Shown here: positions 16,911 to 27,471 of the stretch, in pieces
Layout of the letters: each line of letters opens with the position of its first letter
Numbering within the stretch: the stretch's first letter is position 1
NCBI RefSeq assembly: GCF_000225345.1
Contig: NC_015977.1
Location: forward strand, 2,773,501 to 2,837,500
DNA: 64,000 nt
Source of the DNA: Roseburia hominis A2-183
GTDB lineage: Bacteria; Bacillota; Clostridia; Lachnospirales; Lachnospiraceae
Direction of reading: 5' to 3'
Translations under genes and position numbers: made by a program
Notes under the pieces: model-generated
What the model was told of the DNA's origin: nothing
What the model saw: the letters and a program-made list of their open reading frames with translations, nothing else
The model's database searches: none

Positions 16911-17832
16911 TTAGTCCTCAAACGGGATAACAGCTCCGTCATAGGTGTCGTTGATGTACTGCTTGATCTCATCAGACTTTAATACTTTTACAAGTGCCTG
17001 GATGCCAGGGTCATTCTCATGTCCCTCTTTTACTGCAATGATGTTCACGTAGGTCTTCGCTGCCTCGGAATCGGATGCCTCGTAAGCCAATGCATCTTTT
17101 GCAACGGAGAAGCCCTGCCTGTAATGCATAGTTACCGTTTAATACGACGAATGCAACCTCCGGAGCCACTCTTGCAACCTGCTCTGCTGCCAGCTCCTCG
17201 ATCTTGACGTTGTGCGGGTTCTCTGCGATATCATTAACAGTTGCCTCTAATCCGGCGCCTTCCTTTAAGGTAATGATGCCGTTATCCTGTAACAGAAGAA
17301 GTGCTCTCGCCTCGTTTGTGGTATCGTTCGGCACTGCGATGGTGTCGCCGTCAGCCAGCTCGGAGAGATCGGACTTTGTTCCCGGATAAATGCCGAACGG
17401 CTCATAGTGGATGCCGCCTGCATTGACCAGATGGGTTCCCTTCTCTTCGTTAAAGCTCTCAAGGTACGGAATGTGCTGGAAGTAGTTTGCGTCAAACTCG
17501 CCGCTTTCTACCACTTCGTTCGGCATTACATAGTCGTCGAAAATCTTGATCTCCAGATTCCATCCCTCATCGGCAAGAATCTTCTTTGCTTCCTCAAGAA
17601 TCTCTGCGTGCGGTGTTGCGGATGCAGCCACTTTGATGGTGCCGCCTTCTGCTGCGGTATCGGTGCTCTCTGTGTTCTCAGCACTCACAGCCTCCTCCGT
17701 TGCAGCTACGGGCGTCTCTTCCTTTGTTGCTGCACTGGTGTCTGTGCTCTCCTCCGTGCTGCTTCCGCATCCTGCGAATGCGGATAATGCGAGCACGCCT
17801 GCCAGAATCGTTGACAATACTTTCTTTTTCAT
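16911..17832 (-). pseudogene. metQ: Methionine-binding lipoprotein MetQ, frameshifted
   Basis: Substrate-binding lipoprotein of the MetNIQ D/L-methionine ABC importer (NlpA family). From ATG 17832 (AGGAGG upstream) the frame shows a signal peptide and lipobox FAGCG, a Thr/Glu-rich linker, then the NlpA fold with ATPHAEIL and GIHYEPFGIYPG. The frame breaks near 17113-17115, where GGCAGGGCTTC has one G more than needed. The rest (FSVAKDALAYE to the end IPFED) continues in the next frame to 16911, and the total length is 3n+1. Either a real inactivating insertion in a G-run or a sequencing error. Joined, the protein would be about 306 residues, normal for MetQ. Confidence 0.88.
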
Positions 17833-17879
17833 AATAGTGTCCTCCTTAAAACTTAAAAATATATGCAAATTTGTTATTG

Positions 17880-18539
17880 CTACTTTCTGCGATCCAGCCG
17901 ATTCGCAATCTTCATTCCGATCGTCTGGAAAATCTGGAATAAAATTACCAGAAGCACCACTGTGACAACCATGATATCGGTCTGCCATCTGGTGTAACCA
18001 TAGCGGATGGCAATATCTCCCAGTCCGCCTCCGCCGACGGTTCCTGCCATCGCGGAATATCCTAAAATCGTGCCAAGGGAAATCGTTGCTCCGACAATCA
18101 GAGACGTTCTCGCCTCCACCAGCATGACCTTGGTCACAATCTGAAAATCGGATGCTCCCATGGAGCGCGCTGCCTCGATGACGCCTGCATCCACCTCTTT
18201 TAATGAGGATTCTACCATTCTGGCAATGTAAGGTGCCGCCGCAATCGTCAGCGGGACGATCGTCGCCGTCGATCCGTAGCTTCTTCCCACCACAAATCTG
18301 GTGAACGGAATCAGCACAATCAGCAAAATAATAAACGGAATACTGCGCAGCAGGTTGGAAATCACATCCAGCACCTTGTAGACTGCCGCATTCGGACGGA
18401 TGCCGTCCTTGTCCGTGACAGTCAGCACAATTCCCATCGGAAGTCCGATGATATATCCAAACAATGTGGACGCTAAGGTCATATACAGGGTGTCCCGGAT
18501 TCCCTCCAAAAGCATGATGATTACCTGACTATTCCACAT
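17880..18539 (-). CDS. metI: Methionine ABC transporter permease MetI
   Basis: 219-residue inner-membrane permease of MetNIQ with five or six helices. The cytoplasmic coupling (EAA-type) loop is seen in the ARSMGASDFQIVTKVMLVEAR segment near residues 134-156. It overlaps the metN end by 11 bases and is followed at 47 bases by metQ, the standard metNIQ order. Expression depends on the leader at 19814-20000. Confidence 0.95.
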   Translation of the reverse strand: MWNSQVIIMLLEGIRDTLYMTLASTLFGYIIGLPMGIVLTVTDKDGIRPNAAVYKVLDVISNLLRSIPFIILLIVLIPFTRFVVGRSYGSTATIVPLTIAAAPYIARMVESSLKEVDAGVIEAARSMGASDFQIVTKVMLVEARTSLIVGATISLGTILGYSAMAGTVGGGGLGDIAIRYGYTRWQTDIMVVTVVLLVILFQIFQTIGMKIANRLDRRK

Positions 18540-19617
18540 CTCCGGTCACCTCCTCAATCTCAAGTCCCTTTTCCACCAGATAAGCCTCCATCTGCTCCTG
18601 CAGCCCGGCGTCTGACGGAAGTCCCAGAATCATCTCACCCTTTGCCACTCCGCCGACATTCTTGGTATCTGCGCGGAGGATGTTCACCGGCGTACCGAAC
18701 TTTAACACCATATTGGCAATGACGGGCTCAAATGCGGAATTCTCTGAGAATACAATACGAAGCTTCTTATCGTCGCCGATGCGGTCCCGCTGTCTGCTCT
18801 CACCGCTCCATCCGGTCAGCTCCGCTCCATCCGCAGTATCACCTTCCGCCCCGGAATATGACGCGGCATCCGCAGCACGGTCGCTCAAGATCAGGCTTCT
18901 CGCCACACGGGATTTCGGATGGTTGAAAATCTCCTCGACCAGGCCGACTTCCACGATGCTTCCTTTTTCCACAATCGCCACATGGCTGCAGATTTCCCGG
19001 ATCACGGACATCTGATGCGTGATAATCACAATCGTGATGCCGAATTTCCGGTTGATCTCCTTTAAGAGTGCCAGAATGGACTGCGTTGTCTGCGGATCTA
19101 AGGCACTGGTTGCCTCGTCGCAGAGCAGAATCTTCGGATCCGTCGCAAGAGCTCTGGCGATCGCCACTCTCTGCTTCTGTCCGCCGGAAAGCTGTGCCGG
19201 ATAAGCGTCCGCCTTGTCGGCAAGTCCGACAGTCTCGAGCAGCTCAAGCGCTCTTTTCTTCGCCTCATCCTTCTTTTTCTTCGCAATCTGCATCGGGAAA
19301 CATACATTGTCCAGCACACTCTTTTGCATGAGAAGGTTGAAATGCTGGAAAATCATTGCGATGTCGCTCCGCTGCTCCCGCAGTTCTTTCTCGGTCAGCG
19401 TTCCCAGATCTCTACCACCGATGATGACCTCACCGCCCGTCGGCCTCTCCAGATAATTCAGGCACCGCACCAGAGTACTTTTCCCGGCACCGGACATTCC
19501 GATAATTCCGTAGATGTCTCCCTCCTCAATGTCGAGCGAGATATCCCGCAACGCTTCCACACTGTTTCCCTTCTGCTCGAAGGTCTTTGATAAATGACGT
19601 ATCGCAATTGCTGGCAT
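18529..19617 (-). CDS. metN: Methionine ABC transporter ATP-binding protein MetN
   Basis: 362-residue ATPase driving methionine import. Walker A GMSGAGKSTLVR near residue 38, the LSGGQKQR signature near 143, Walker B LLCDEATSALD near 163, and a C-terminal ACT-like NIL domain (about 265-355) that in E. coli MetN binds methionine for trans-inhibition. The ATG at 19617 has AGGAGG upstream. First structural gene of the operon. The CTD linker is long and acidic. Transport activity is uncertain while metQ is broken. Confidence 0.95.
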   Translation of the reverse strand: MPAIAIRHLSKTFEQKGNSVEALRDISLDIEEGDIYGIIGMSGAGKSTLVRCLNYLERPTGGEVIIGGRDLGTLTEKELREQRSDIAMIFQHFNLLMQKSVLDNVCFPMQIAKKKKDEAKKRALELLETVGLADKADAYPAQLSGGQKQRVAIARALATDPKILLCDEATSALDPQTTQSILALLKEINRKFGITIVIITHQMSVIREICSHVAIVEKGSIVEVGLVEEIFNHPKSRVARSLILSDRAADAASYSGAEGDTADGAELTGWSGESRQRDRIGDDKKLRIVFSENSAFEPVIANMVLKFGTPVNILRADTKNVGGVAKGEMILGLPSDAGLQEQMEAYLVEKGLEIEEVTGDVE

Positions 19618-19659
19618 GCACTGCCACCTCCTAAAATGTTATTTCAAAAACATAGAATT

Positions 19660-19822
19660 AAAAAGAATCTCGCTTGCGAGATTCTCCGCGCGCGAGCGGT
19701 TCGCAAAGCAATATTTTCCTTACCGCGAGCTGCGCATCCTCGCGGAGCGTTTTTTATTTCATAGGAAAGTTCCACTTTCACACATGAATGTATCACGGTA
19801 TTTCCTATGAAATAAAAAAAAG
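19660..19822. repeat. Palindromic (REP/MITE-like) element in the metN leader
   Basis: Several nested inverted repeats: a perfect 18-bp pair TTTTTATTTCATAGGAAA (19751-19768) / its complement (19801-19818), CGCGAG...CTCGCG near 19722-19746, and a 9-bp hairpin AGAATCTCG/CGAGATTCT (19664-19685) followed on the minus strand by T's, which could act as a second terminator. A related ATAGGAA/TTCCTAT palindrome occurs at 27501-27528. Probably a dispersed repeat that landed between attenuator and metN. Confidence 0.65.
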
Positions 19823-19837
19823 CAGCCCTGCGGCTGC
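19814..19837 (-). terminator. Attenuator terminator upstream of metN
   Basis: Minus-strand stem GCAGCC/GGCTGC with a GCAG loop followed by eight T, 29 bases after the leader-peptide stop. Its ascending arm contains AGCCGCA (19829-19835), which is exactly complementary to TGCGGCT inside the leader ORF (19903-19909), giving a possible antiterminator. Confidence 0.85.
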
Positions 19838-19865
19838 CCCAACCTGCGCTCCATAGCGCCGGTAT

Positions 19866-20000
19866 CTATCTGTTCTTCCAAAGGTCTGAAGAATCCGGGA
19901 AAAGCCGCACAACATTCACATCCATGCCACCATACATGGACATCCGACACATCCTGTCACACATCATCGCTGTTCTCATCTGCCACGCTGTGTCTCTCAT
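19866..20000 (-). CDS. Methionine-rich leader peptide of the metNIQ operon
   Basis: 44-codon ORF between the promoter and the attenuator, with a strong AGGAGG 9 bases before its ATG at 20000. Eight of the first 26 residues are Met (positions 1, 8, 12, 13, 17, 20, 22, 26), with two Cys. It begins MRDTAWQMRTAMMCDRMCRM. After residue 26 there is no further Met. This codon bias, the position, the terminator just downstream and a 7-nt perfect antiterminator pairing fit transcription attenuation by ribosome stalling when charged Met-tRNA is scarce. No S-box or T-box motif is present in this leader. The ORF is not long enough to be a normal protein-coding gene and is interpreted from context. Confidence 0.75.
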   Translation of the reverse strand: MRDTAWQMRTAMMCDRMCRMSMYGGMDVNVVRLFPDSSDLWKNR

Positions 20001-20072
20001 ACCCGTTTCCTCCTTCCTGCTTTTTGCTCCATGCCATCTGTTATCTGCATGTTTTTTTTGATTACATTGCCT

Positions 20073-20102
20073 ATTATAACAGGCAGTTTGGGAAAGTGTT
20101 AA
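20073..20102 (-). promoter_or_regulatory. Promoter of the met leader/metNIQ
   Basis: Extended -10 TGTTATAAT with TATAAT at 20073-20078 and -35 TTAACA at 20097-20102, spacer 18. Predicted start near 20066. Confidence 0.8.
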
Positions 20103-20117
20103 TACAGGAAGCCGATA

Positions 20118-20146
20118 GTTGGCTATAGGTGAAACCTATAGCCAAC
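20118..20146. promoter_or_regulatory. Perfect 13-bp palindrome, probable LysR operator
   Basis: GTTGGCTATAGGT-gaa-ACCTATAGCCAAC, centred at 20132, about 66 bases upstream of the predicted met-leader start, which is the classic recognition-site position for LysR regulators. It lies 2 bases after the stop of a lysR gene. No T-run follows on either strand, so a terminator role is less likely. Confidence 0.6.
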
Positions 20147-20148
20147 CA

Positions 20149-21054
20149 CTACATAATTTTCTCTTTATATTTTTTCAATTCTTCGATATAGATCTGTCCG
20201 ATGTGACTGATTGATGCCCCTTTGCGCTTCACATAGCCAATCCGCATCTTTTCCGTCTCCTTGAGTGGAATTGCCATGTAATCGCTGCCGTTTAGCTCCT
20301 CGCAGATAATTCCCGAGCACAGCGTGTACGCGTTCAGCCCAATCATAAAGTTTAGCAGTGTTGCCCGGTCGTTCGCCTTAATCAGCCGCTTATAATCGTA
20401 GGTGCTCTTCATCTCTTCCGCGAGGTAGAGCGAGCTGTTCCGTCCCTGGTCAAAGGACAGGCACGGATACTCGTCCAGTTCTTCCATGGAGATCACGCTC
20501 TGCCCTGCAAGCGGATGTCCCGACCACAGATAGACATAGGTATCGCAGGCAAACAGTTCCTCGAACTCCAACCCCTTCTCCCGGATGATCTTCATCAGCA
20601 CCTGCTCATTAAAATCGTTCAGATACAGAACGCCGATCTCGCTCTTAAAATTGCGTACATTCTCCATAACGTCGTATGTGGTCGTCTCGTTCGCCGCGAA
20701 TTCATAGCTGTCCATCCCTGCTTTCTTTACAGTCTCCACAAACGCTTTGACTGCAAACGTATAGTGCTGCATGGACACACTGAACTTTTCCTTGCGCTGC
20801 TTCTCCACATAGCGCGCCTTAAGGATTCCGTACTGGTCGATCACCTGTCTGGCGTACCCCAGAAACTCCTCACCCTCCGGTGTGATGATGATTCCCCGGT
20901 TCGAGCGCATAAAAATCTGCAGCCCGATCTCCTGCTCCAGTTCCTTTACCGTCTCGGACAGACTGGGCTGCGATAAAAACAGACGCTTTGCCGCCTCATT
21001 CATCGATCCGCAGCCGGCTATCGTCAGTGCATATCTCAGTTGCTGTAATGTCAT
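20149..21054 (-). CDS. LysR-family transcriptional regulator
   Basis: 301-residue DNA-binding regulator. Winged HTH in residues 1-60 (LRYALTIAGCGSMNEAAKRLFLSQPSLS pattern) and a LysR effector-binding domain after residue 90. It overlaps the upstream YitT gene by 4 bases (ATGA). Its stop is immediately followed by a perfect palindrome and then the met operon promoter, so control of metNIQ (sulfur amino-acid uptake) is a reasonable inference. The effector is unknown. Confidence 0.9.
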   Translation of the reverse strand: MTLQQLRYALTIAGCGSMNEAAKRLFLSQPSLSETVKELEQEIGLQIFMRSNRGIIITPEGEEFLGYARQVIDQYGILKARYVEKQRKEKFSVSMQHYTFAVKAFVETVKKAGMDSYEFAANETTTYDVMENVRNFKSEIGVLYLNDFNEQVLMKIIREKGLEFEELFACDTYVYLWSGHPLAGQSVISMEELDEYPCLSFDQGRNSSLYLAEEMKSTYDYKRLIKANDRATLLNFMIGLNAYTLCSGIICEELNGSDYMAIPLKETEKMRIGYVKRKGASISHIGQIYIEELKKYKEKIM

Positions 21055-24320: not shown

Positions 24321-25070
24321 CTATGACTCTTCCTTTAAAATACGTTTTAAGAATTTTCTGGTTGCCTCCTCCTTCGGATGGTCAAAGATCTCCTCCGGCG
24401 TTCCTTTTTCCACAACCACACCGTCTGCCATGAAAATAACCTGGCTTGCCACTTCTCTTGCAAACTGCATCTCATGTGTTACCACAATCATTGTGACTCC
24501 CTGTTTTGCGAACTGTTTCATGACATTTAACACCTCACCCACCAGCTCCGGATCGAGTGCGGACGTCGGCTCGTCGAAAAGAATGACCTCCGGATTCGCC
24601 GCCATTGCCCGTGCAATTCCGACACGCTGCTGCATGCCGCCGGATAGCTGTGCCGGGTAATAATCGTACTTTCCTGCAAGACCAACCTTGTCTAACAGTT
24701 CTTTTCCGATCTTCTCCGCCTCTTCCTTTTTCATATGGCGTCCCACGGTAAGCCCCAGCGTCACATTAGAAAGAACCGTCTTGTTCACGAAGAGATTGTA
24801 ATTCTGAAAAACGAAGGAAGTATTTCTCCGAATCTCCAGCTTTTCTTTATTTTTTACATTTTTTAAGTTATATTCTCTTCCGTTTAAGACCATCGAGCCT
24901 TCATCCGGTTTTTCCAGAAGATTCAGGCAGCGCAAAAAGGTGGTCTTACCGGAACCGCTCGGTCCGAGTATGACGATGACGTTCCCTTTCTGTACATCAA
25001 GATCGATTCCTCTTAAAATCACGTTATCTCCAAAAACCTTTTTTACATTTCTCACTTCTAATACTGCCAT
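24321..25070 (-). CDS. Polar amino-acid ABC transporter ATP-binding protein
   Basis: 249-residue ABC ATPase of the GlnQ/HisP type. Walker [13 protein letters not shown] near residue 34, signature LSGGMQQR near 142, Walker [14 protein letters not shown] near 162, switch His in VTHEM. It lies downstream of a truncated permease, so the complete importer is no longer encoded here. It may still work with another membrane part or be left over from the deletion. Confidence 0.93.
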
Positions 25071-26547: not shown

Positions 26548-27471
26548 ATGACACTACAACAAATGAGATATGTGATTACAACCGCAGAATGTTATTCCAT
26601 CACAAGTGCTGCTGAGAAATTCCAGCTGTCACAGCCCAATCTGTCGAACGCGATCAAAGATCTGGAGCAGGAACTCGGCATCCAGATCTTCGAGCGGAAA
26701 AAAAGTGGCGTCTCTTTAACCCCCGACGGCGCCGAGCTGGTTCGCTCGATCCAGCCGATCTTAAACCAGGTGCAGCGCCTTGAGGACACCTACAAACAGC
26801 CGAGCAGCCACAGGATCTCTTTTAGCGTTGCCACACAGCACATTTCCATTGTGACAGAGGTCATGATTGCCTTCATGAAGGAGCAGGACCCGCACTTTAA
26901 CGAATACAATTTCCAGTATCTCCAGCTGCGCACCAAGGAGATCTTAGATTACGTCGCATCGGAATTCTGTGAGATCGGCGTTCTGTTGAAAAACCGTGAG
27001 AACCGCGTTCTCGACTGGGAGATGGAGCAGCAGGAACTTGATTTTCATCTGCTGGCAACCATGCGCCCCAAAGTCTATGTTCCCAAGCAGCATCCGCTCG
27101 CCGGCAGGACGAAGGTATCGATGGAAGACCTGGCTCCCTATGTCTACAGCCACTATTTTCAGGGAATCGACAGTTCCAGAGACCGCTTCTTCTCCGAGGA
27201 GCTTGTGGAGAATACCGTCGCAAAAAAAACAATCACCCTCACGGACGAGATGGCAGATGCCAGCATCGGCATGGAGATGAACACCTATACCATCGGTTCC
27301 GGCATGTCCGGTGAAAATCTGCTGGAAAAAGATTACGCCGTCATGAATCTGGACACGCATCAACGGATCGAACTTGGCTGGATCTCCCGCAGGGATCACG
27401 AACTAAGTAATTTCGGCAAGCGCTTTCTGGATCTGCTGGCAGAAAAACTCAACTCCATGCAGTTGGATTAG
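26548..27471 (+). CDS. LysR-family transcriptional regulator
   Basis: 307 residues, paralogous to the LysR at 20.1-21.1 kb (both begin MTLQQ-RY). HTH at 1-60 (ITSAAEKFQLSQPNLSNAIKDLE), effector domain after residue 90. AAGGAG lies inside the end of the MATE remnant, 7 bases before the ATG, so it was once cotranscribed with the MATE gene. With the MATE promoter deleted its expression is unclear. Confidence 0.9.
   Translation: MTLQQMRYVITTAECYSITSAAEKFQLSQPNLSNAIKDLEQELGIQIFERKKSGVSLTPDGAELVRSIQPILNQVQRLEDTYKQPSSHRISFSVATQHISIVTEVMIAFMKEQDPHFNEYNFQYLQLRTKEILDYVASEFCEIGVLLKNRENRVLDWEMEQQELDFHLLATMRPKVYVPKQHPLAGRTKVSMEDLAPYVYSHYFQGIDSSRDRFFSEELVENTVAKKTITLTDEMADASIGMEMNTYTIGSGMSGENLLEKDYAVMNLDTHQRIELGWISRRDHELSNFGKRFLDLLAEKLNSMQLD

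Follow-up and report, generated by a model that had tools for sequence, protein, structure and literature searches.

The stretch of Roseburia hominis A2-183 DNA analysed here (64,000 nucleotides, hereafter the window, from a genome assembled as a single contig of 3,592,125 bases) carries a short methionine-rich open reading frame and a terminator in front of the methionine importer operon metNIQ, which raises the question of how transcription into this operon is controlled. SAM-I (S-box) and T-box RNAs are known controls of methionine genes in Firmicutes. The preliminary description of the locus had seen neither and had proposed instead that ribosomes stalling on Met codons leave an RNA segment free to block the terminator. 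Our analysis of sequence patterns suggests that the element is very probably a ribosome-mediated transcription attenuator of the trp/his type, in which a Met/Cys-rich leader peptide would control read-through into metNIQ.

On the minus strand the locus contains, in this order, a LysR-type gene, a palindrome, a promoter-like element, a Shine-Dalgarno sequence, the leader ORF, the terminator, a repeat element, metN, metI and metQ. The leader does stand in front of metNIQ as first described: the downstream genes, all on the minus strand, encode the ATPase of the methionine importer (metN, 18529-19617; TIGR02314 with E 1.4e-107, under the cut-off), a permease (metI, 17880-18539; NF008049, over the cut-off) and a metQ-like substrate-binding lipoprotein (17017-17988; profile matches). 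Near the 3' end of metQ, at about 17090-17110, the frame shifts and the conserved C-terminal part carries on in another frame, reflecting either a strain lesion or a sequencing error. The predicted leader ORF (19866-20000, minus strand; MRDTAWQMRTAMMCDRMCRMSMYGGMDVNVVRLFPDSSDLWKNR), taken from the ORF list and backed by homologues, comprises 44 codons and TAG, and is preceded by the Shine-Dalgarno sequence AGGAGG (20009-20014, minus strand), in agreement with the 44-codon frame and strong ribosome binding site (RBS) reported before. Its eight Met codons (1, 8, 12, 13, 17, 20, 22 and 26) all fall within the first 26 codons, again as reported, and Cys codons are present at positions 14 and 18. 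The U-run terminator that had been placed after the ORF was recovered at 19814-19840 (minus strand) as GGGCAGCC/GCAG/GGCTGC followed by eight T, and the hairpin by itself folds at -13.9 kcal/mol. The claimed exact complementarity of TGCGGCT (19903-19909) to AGCCGCA (19829-19835) is also correct; TGCGGCT begins 13 nt after Met codon 26 and lies 34 nt from the stop codon, close to the earlier figure of about 35. Between the terminator U-run and metN a repeat element spans about 155 bp (19657-19812); it contains inverted repeats and contributes extra hairpins with U-runs ahead of metN. The genome has 19 matches to this element, of which 12, the present copy included, are nearly full length with 90-100% identity. 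The features that go beyond the preliminary description are the Cys codons 14 and 18, a pairing between the RBS and the ORF end, and the LysR gene and palindrome upstream.

Known RNA switches were searched for with Rfam. At gathering scores the whole 64,000-nt window yielded two tRNAs only and the leader locus had no match, which bears out the earlier remark that no S-box or T-box is visible. A SAM-I riboswitch (RF00162) and a T-box (RF00230) at the locus were both rejected, as neither covariance model matched there. Both types are present elsewhere in the same genome, with one SAM-I match before a gene that by eye resembles metK and 13 T-box matches, all away from the leader locus. The signal at the metN leader would differ from theirs in being codon-specific ribosome stalling.

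We then asked where comparable leaders occur (L numbers below denote loci or their leaders, P numbers homologues of the window peptide, G numbers genomes and f numbers families). A leader was defined as a Shine-Dalgarno sequence, a short Met/Cys-rich ORF and a hairpin with a U-run, so that these features are present by selection. A genus search with the LysR protein gave a match in 48 of 62 genomes at E<=1e-60, and the 30 loci listed were examined. In 16 of these 30, metN lies directly downstream of the LysR gene in the same direction; a leader is present in eight of the 16 (L031, which is the window, L032, L033, L039, L041, L042, L044 and L050) and absent in the other eight (L034, L037, L038, L045, L046, L047, L049 and L051). 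A ninth genus leader, L059, stands before a metN gene oriented divergently from the LysR gene. At L045 the gap between the LysR gene and metN is short and holds pieces like the end of the L044 leader and its terminator, the Met/Cys run being gone; judged by its sequence it looks like the remnant of a decayed attenuator. At L037 the LysR gene and metN are separated by 438 bp with long inverted repeats and no leader, and this stretch looks like an insert.

A scan with fixed criteria over both strands of loci L001-L170 (951,583 bases) returned 22 matches, 21 of which lie directly upstream of metN; the remaining one, L143, is not before metN and was set aside as unrelated. Five of the 21 are duplicates of the same leader, which leaves 16 distinct leaders, including those of Galacturonibacter, Lachnotalea glycerini, Lachnoclostridium phytofermentans, Clostridium sp. 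UBA3947 and Clostridium sp. N3C. These loci had been picked via metN, the LysR protein or a DNA pattern, so the scan tests the place of leaders within loci and not in random genomes. For a census of the class, 391 genomes were searched with a metN profile (match in 166 at E<=1e-85) and the regions upstream of the 110 best-listed matches (30 and 80 loci) were taken, 40 further listed ones being left out. Twelve regions matched, namely the window, L203, L217 and nine others, and a relaxed scan added L189 and L252. L217 lies far upstream of metN and was set aside as unrelated, and L203 is a doubtful leader that was dropped before the swap and composition tests described below. An accepted leader was thus counted in 12 of the 110 class regions, window included, from the window's family and from f26, f31, f66, f72, f74 and f99. 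With stricter settings 11 sense-strand regions matched, L203 and L217 among them, and no antisense region did. For the window's family, that profile, applied to 299 genomes (match in 152 at E<=1e-95), gave 88 upstream regions among the matches listed (28 and 60 loci), of which 20 matched, two being leaders already known, with no antisense match. The antisense strands of all 198 metN upstream regions were thus free of leaders; four of the upstream regions (L200, L240, L280 and L311) have under 400 nt before the contig end. By rough tally, fuzzy core motifs numbered 11 for S-boxes and 11 for T-boxes among the 110 class regions and none and one, respectively, among the 88 family regions, and Rfam run on 40 of the 110 class loci gave, as an equally rough tally, no SAM-I and four T-boxes.

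In all, 46 leaders upstream of metN were gathered (16, 12 and 18, hereafter the first, second and third sets), or 45 after removal of the doubtful L203; similar leaders in relatives, for which the preliminary description had suggested looking, therefore exist in number. They were found in the window's genus, in other members of its family, in Clostridium and in six more families within the class. In genome G618 metN is present twice, and the two copies are preceded by different Met/Cys-rich leaders (L208 and L214). A strict scan was also made of 60 genus loci that surround the best metY and metA-like matches (235,234 bases on each strand; the metA-like matches fall below the family cut-off), and it found neither a leader nor a SAM-I-like core. 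A profile of 16 leader peptides hit seven of the 299 family genomes at E<=0.1 and missed the window's own leader, so that the method is too insensitive; the match in G212, the only one of the seven that was placed, is before metN. A DNA pattern for Met-Cys-Met-Cys had 88 matches in the window's own genome with at most one mismatch, and none of the first 30 loci scanned had the combination of Shine-Dalgarno sequence, ORF and terminator.

The leader peptides are alike in composition and not in sequence. In an alignment of 16 of them the start Met is the only invariant column, the order and spacing of Met and Cys are not kept, and runs resembling MCMC recur. Over the 1598 codons after the start in the 45 leaders, Met makes up 20.4% and Cys 9.9%, values inflated by the selection on Met and on Met plus Cys. 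All 45 have at least one Cys and 41 at least two, which suggests from the sequences that Cys codons belong to the leader pattern alongside Met. Closer to the window, 15 homologues of its peptide exist as predicted proteins. In 14 of these, all seven internal Met columns between codons 2 and 30 are invariant whereas 15 of the 22 other columns vary (Fisher exact 0.002); the fifteenth, P0009, lacks M13 and M26 and was excluded from the count because of an indel. The preliminary description had made its proposal depend on conservation of the Met codons in relatives, and they are conserved in 14 of the 15 homologues. Cys is less well kept than Met in this group, C14 being changed in two of 14 and C18 in nine of 14, so Met is the firmer signal there. 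The amino acid read by the leader would be Met, and probably Met plus Cys.

These data bear on the possibility that the element is a general translation-stress or antibiotic-sensing leader with no specificity for Met. There is a precedent in the hflX uORFs of Bacillales, thought in the accessible text of PMC8632094 to act via antibiotic-stalled ribosomes and RNA structure. Such a leader would not be expected to show conservation specific to Met codons, nor enrichment of Met and Cys in 45 of 45 accepted leaders (in part a product of selection), and no leader of the kind was found around metY or metA-like genes in the 60 genus loci. We regard this explanation as very improbable.

An attenuator would require alternative RNA structures, and four segments with the pairings 1:2, 2:3 and 3:4 (the terminator), of which 2:3 competes with the other two, are supported by sequence-based tests. 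In the window, all on the minus strand, segment 1 is the RBS/start region (19992-20013), which can pair with the ORF end; segment 2 (19887-19910) contains TGCGGCT and has either segment 1 or the terminator 5' arm as its partner; segment 3 (GGGGCAGCCGCA, 19829-19840) is the terminator 5' arm with most of the loop; and segment 4 (GGCTGC and eight T, 19814-19827) is the 3' arm with the U-run. For 2:3, the terminator 5' arm together with the loop was matched against the RNA running from codon 5 as far as the terminator, and the best duplex was compared with 500 dinucleotide shuffles. The window duplex scores -19.5 kcal/mol, with p=0.038, modest by itself. In the first set eight of 16 leaders reach p<0.05 (Fisher 9e-8), and the duplex ends no more than 29 nt from the stop codon in 14 of 16. 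L032 and L033 are the two exceptions; they are the leaders most closely related to that of the window, and their best duplex is not homologous to the window's. In the second set five of 12 are significant (Fisher 1e-5; four of 11 and 6e-5 without L203); three of the five (L210, L215 and L224) are close relatives and another is L203, and keeping one of the three and omitting L203 gives Fisher 0.0024. The third set has six of 18 (Fisher 4e-7), and the best duplex is situated farther upstream in L360 and in some leaders of this set that fall short of significance. Taken singly, 19 of the 46 leaders are at p<0.05 and 27 above, and in L191, L208 and L295 the pairing is worse than the mean of their own shuffles.

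We had considered that a terminating ribosome masks segment 2 in every leader. This was contradicted by the window, where a ribosome terminating at the distant stop codon would be too far away to cover segment 2, and by some relatives, and so the 1:2 helix was tested, as pairing of positions -14 to +8, which span the RBS and start codon, with the end of the ORF or the RNA just past it. The window again gives a value that is modest by itself (p=0.036 against dinucleotide shuffles). Nine of 16 leaders in the first set are at p<0.05 (Fisher 5e-10), two of 12 in the second (Fisher 0.004, both from related leaders) and 11 of 18 in the third (Fisher 5e-12); singly, 22 of the 46 are below this level and 24 above it. 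Since related leaders are not independent, partners were also swapped between species with one leader per cluster. A leader's own partner pairs better than foreign partners do on average in 24 of 31 clusters for 2:3 (Wilcoxon 1e-5) and in the same number for 1:2 (Wilcoxon 3e-5); an earlier run with 28 leaders in 21 clusters gave 1e-4 and 0.02, respectively. Segments 1 and 3 are rivals for segment 2, as in L039, where AUCAGAUAU in the start region and CAGAUGUUUCC in the terminator arm compete for it. Recurrence, Met conservation and the 2:3 pairing, which is supported across species even though the paired sequences are not the same, together support the earlier proposal that stalling at Met codons would free a segment able to block the terminator.

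Long-range pairings conserved at the RNA level could also belong to an undescribed riboswitch or a protein-binding RNA, the ORF being a by-product of RNA constraints. Such constraints would leave no reason for Met codons lying between the paired segments to be invariant while their neighbours vary; Rfam has no match, and by eye we noticed no common aptamer-like core. This alternative seems to us very unlikely too.

A further reading is that the ORF encodes a small Met/Cys-rich peptide with a function of its own, such as binding metals or thiols, and that the terminator merely ends its short mRNA. Cys and Met are good metal ligands, the MCMC-like runs recur and homologues are known as predicted proteins. 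A functional peptide should, however, keep more than its Met and Cys content, and here neither order nor spacing is kept and the peptide ends differ in homologues P0007, P0008 and P0012-P0015. In L119 the frame stops before segment 2, yet 1:2 and 2:3 are both retained, which argues for selection on the RNA; and a location directly before metN, as in 21 of the 22 matches of the first scan, also speaks against it. We therefore give the peptide reading a slightly smaller chance still than the two preceding ones.

For the attenuator we propose a working model. When charged tRNA-Met (or tRNA-Cys) is scarce, a ribosome would stall in the Met/Cys run; stalled and queued ribosomes would prevent segment 1 from pairing, 2:3 would form as the RNA emerges, no terminator would form and metNIQ would be transcribed. 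When a stalled ribosome was mimicked by folding without the RNA behind it, segment 3 paired more with upstream RNA in 39 of the 43 leaders tested (of 45), the value for the window going from 0.56 to 0.80, although part of this rise is expected since removing upstream RNA takes out competitors. For the window RNA ahead of a ribosome stalled at codon 26, up to the terminator loop, the minimum-energy structure contains the 2:3 helix (-31.7 kcal/mol). The helix also forms partly in naked window RNA up to the loop, so the off-state must need a moving ribosome, the 1:2 helix or the speed of events. When Met is ample the ribosome would run on and the terminator would form, by one of two routes. In several relatives a ribosome at a stop codon in or beside segment 2 would cover that segment; this classic arrangement, with the stop codon inside segment 2 or at its end, is seen in L039, L042, L044, L107, L110 and L116. 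For the window the proposed route is renewed pairing of segment 2 with segment 1 once the ribosome has passed, and with the stop codon 34 nt past TGCGGCT, a 1:2 helix could let the terminator win. In the window 1:2 is thus likely a protector helix, which offers an answer to the puzzle of the distant stop codon raised by the preliminary description. The full-length fold of the window leader has 1:2 and the terminator present together. A point against the model is that Met shortage should slow initiation on the leader as well.

Upstream of the leader, protein-mediated control is probably a second layer. The LysR-type regulator gene (301 aa, 20149-21054, minus strand; NCBIfam LysR-type matches, all below cut-off) lies directly upstream and ends 148 bp before the leader ORF; a LysR gene 92% identical to it is present in a Roseburia hominis MAG. 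In the window the LysR gene is followed by the palindrome TTGGCTATAGG-TTTCA-CCTATAGCCAA (20119-20145), a candidate LysR-type operator by inference, with similar palindromes in relatives, and by a promoter-like TTAACA-18-TATAAT (20073-20102, minus strand) with comparable elements in relatives; the palindrome centre is about 66 bp ahead of the predicted transcription start. That the hairpin is a mere end terminator of the LysR gene, which stops those 148 bp ahead, and the ORF a chance frame has next to no probability, in view of the promoter-like sequence between gene and ORF, the recurrence, the invariant Met codons and the pairing tests. We think that the LysR-type protein probably controls initiation of metNIQ transcription. 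In streptococci, LysR regulation of the MtaR type acts through the MET-box, a palindrome resembling TATAG...CTATA, on transcription initiation. A LysR-type protein and a palindrome similar to this motif before a methionine-importer operon make the present locus a candidate parallel, with the difference that the metN leader would act on termination. Methionine regulation in Gram-positives has reportedly been compared by Rodionov and co-workers in 2004. At L058 a related LysR gene (65% identical) and a similar palindrome precede a gene that by eye resembles an O-acetylhomoserine sulfhydrylase, with no leader ORF, so several sulfur amino-acid genes may be under regulators of this family. The window holds a second LysR-type gene (26548-27471, plus strand) close to another ABC-transporter ATPase gene (24321-25070, minus strand).

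The mechanism type is already known; what would be new is the specificity, the host group and the helix that closes the start codon. Like the trp, his, ilv and leu attenuators, the metN leader has a short codon-rich ORF and exclusive antiterminator and terminator structures upstream of an operon supplying the same amino acid; unlike them it uses Met and Cys codons, has its own RBS/start region as segment 1 and serves an importer operon, in Clostridia. In Firmicutes, the accessible text of PMC2965389 states that its authors, with the exception of ermC, had been aware of leader-peptide systems only in Proteobacteria and Actinobacteria until their own His leader in bacilli; excerpts of PMC9413887 describe His attenuators in some Eubacteriales and Erysipelotrichales, and those of PMC5794164 a Leu-rich ilv leader of Staphylococcus aureus combined with the protein regulator CodY. 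As far as the accessible parts of these papers go, the shared trait is a leader peptide in Gram-positives where a T-box or riboswitch is the usual alternative, and, for the S. aureus leader, a protein regulator alongside, as with LysR beside the metN leader; the amino acids and operons differ, and those parts describe no Met leader. Cys codons in a leader ORF are shared with Cys leaders before cys operons of Mycobacterium, which lack an obvious terminator (PMC1262725), and with a Cys uORF before cysS in Rhodobacterales (PMC8632094); these belong to other phyla and the portions available describe no Met run. The same portion of PMC1262725 reports that methionine operons in Actinobacteria are not preceded by a conserved RNA structure. 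We found no earlier report of a Met leader-peptide attenuator in the literature searched, subscription papers being mostly beyond its reach.

Leader-peptide attenuation is known for several amino acids. Met is special among them: its shortage should strike initiation and elongation together, and a Met attenuator thus tests the balance of both. This leads us to speculate, as a tentative possibility rather than an expectation, that the metN leaders form a widespread and unreported class of clostridial attenuators reading Met and Cys jointly, in which shortage of either would stall the leader ribosome and the helix closing the start codon would add a dependence on continued initiation, so that one RNA would weigh elongator against initiator Met-tRNA; such leaders may repeatedly have been gained or lost, or have changed places with control of metNIQ by LysR alone, an S-box or a T-box. 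If the attenuator is real, it would provide a simple annotation rule for short ORFs of this kind, the window leader matching no Rfam family, and methionine uptake in anaerobes of the gut and the environment would have one more point of control at the RNA level.
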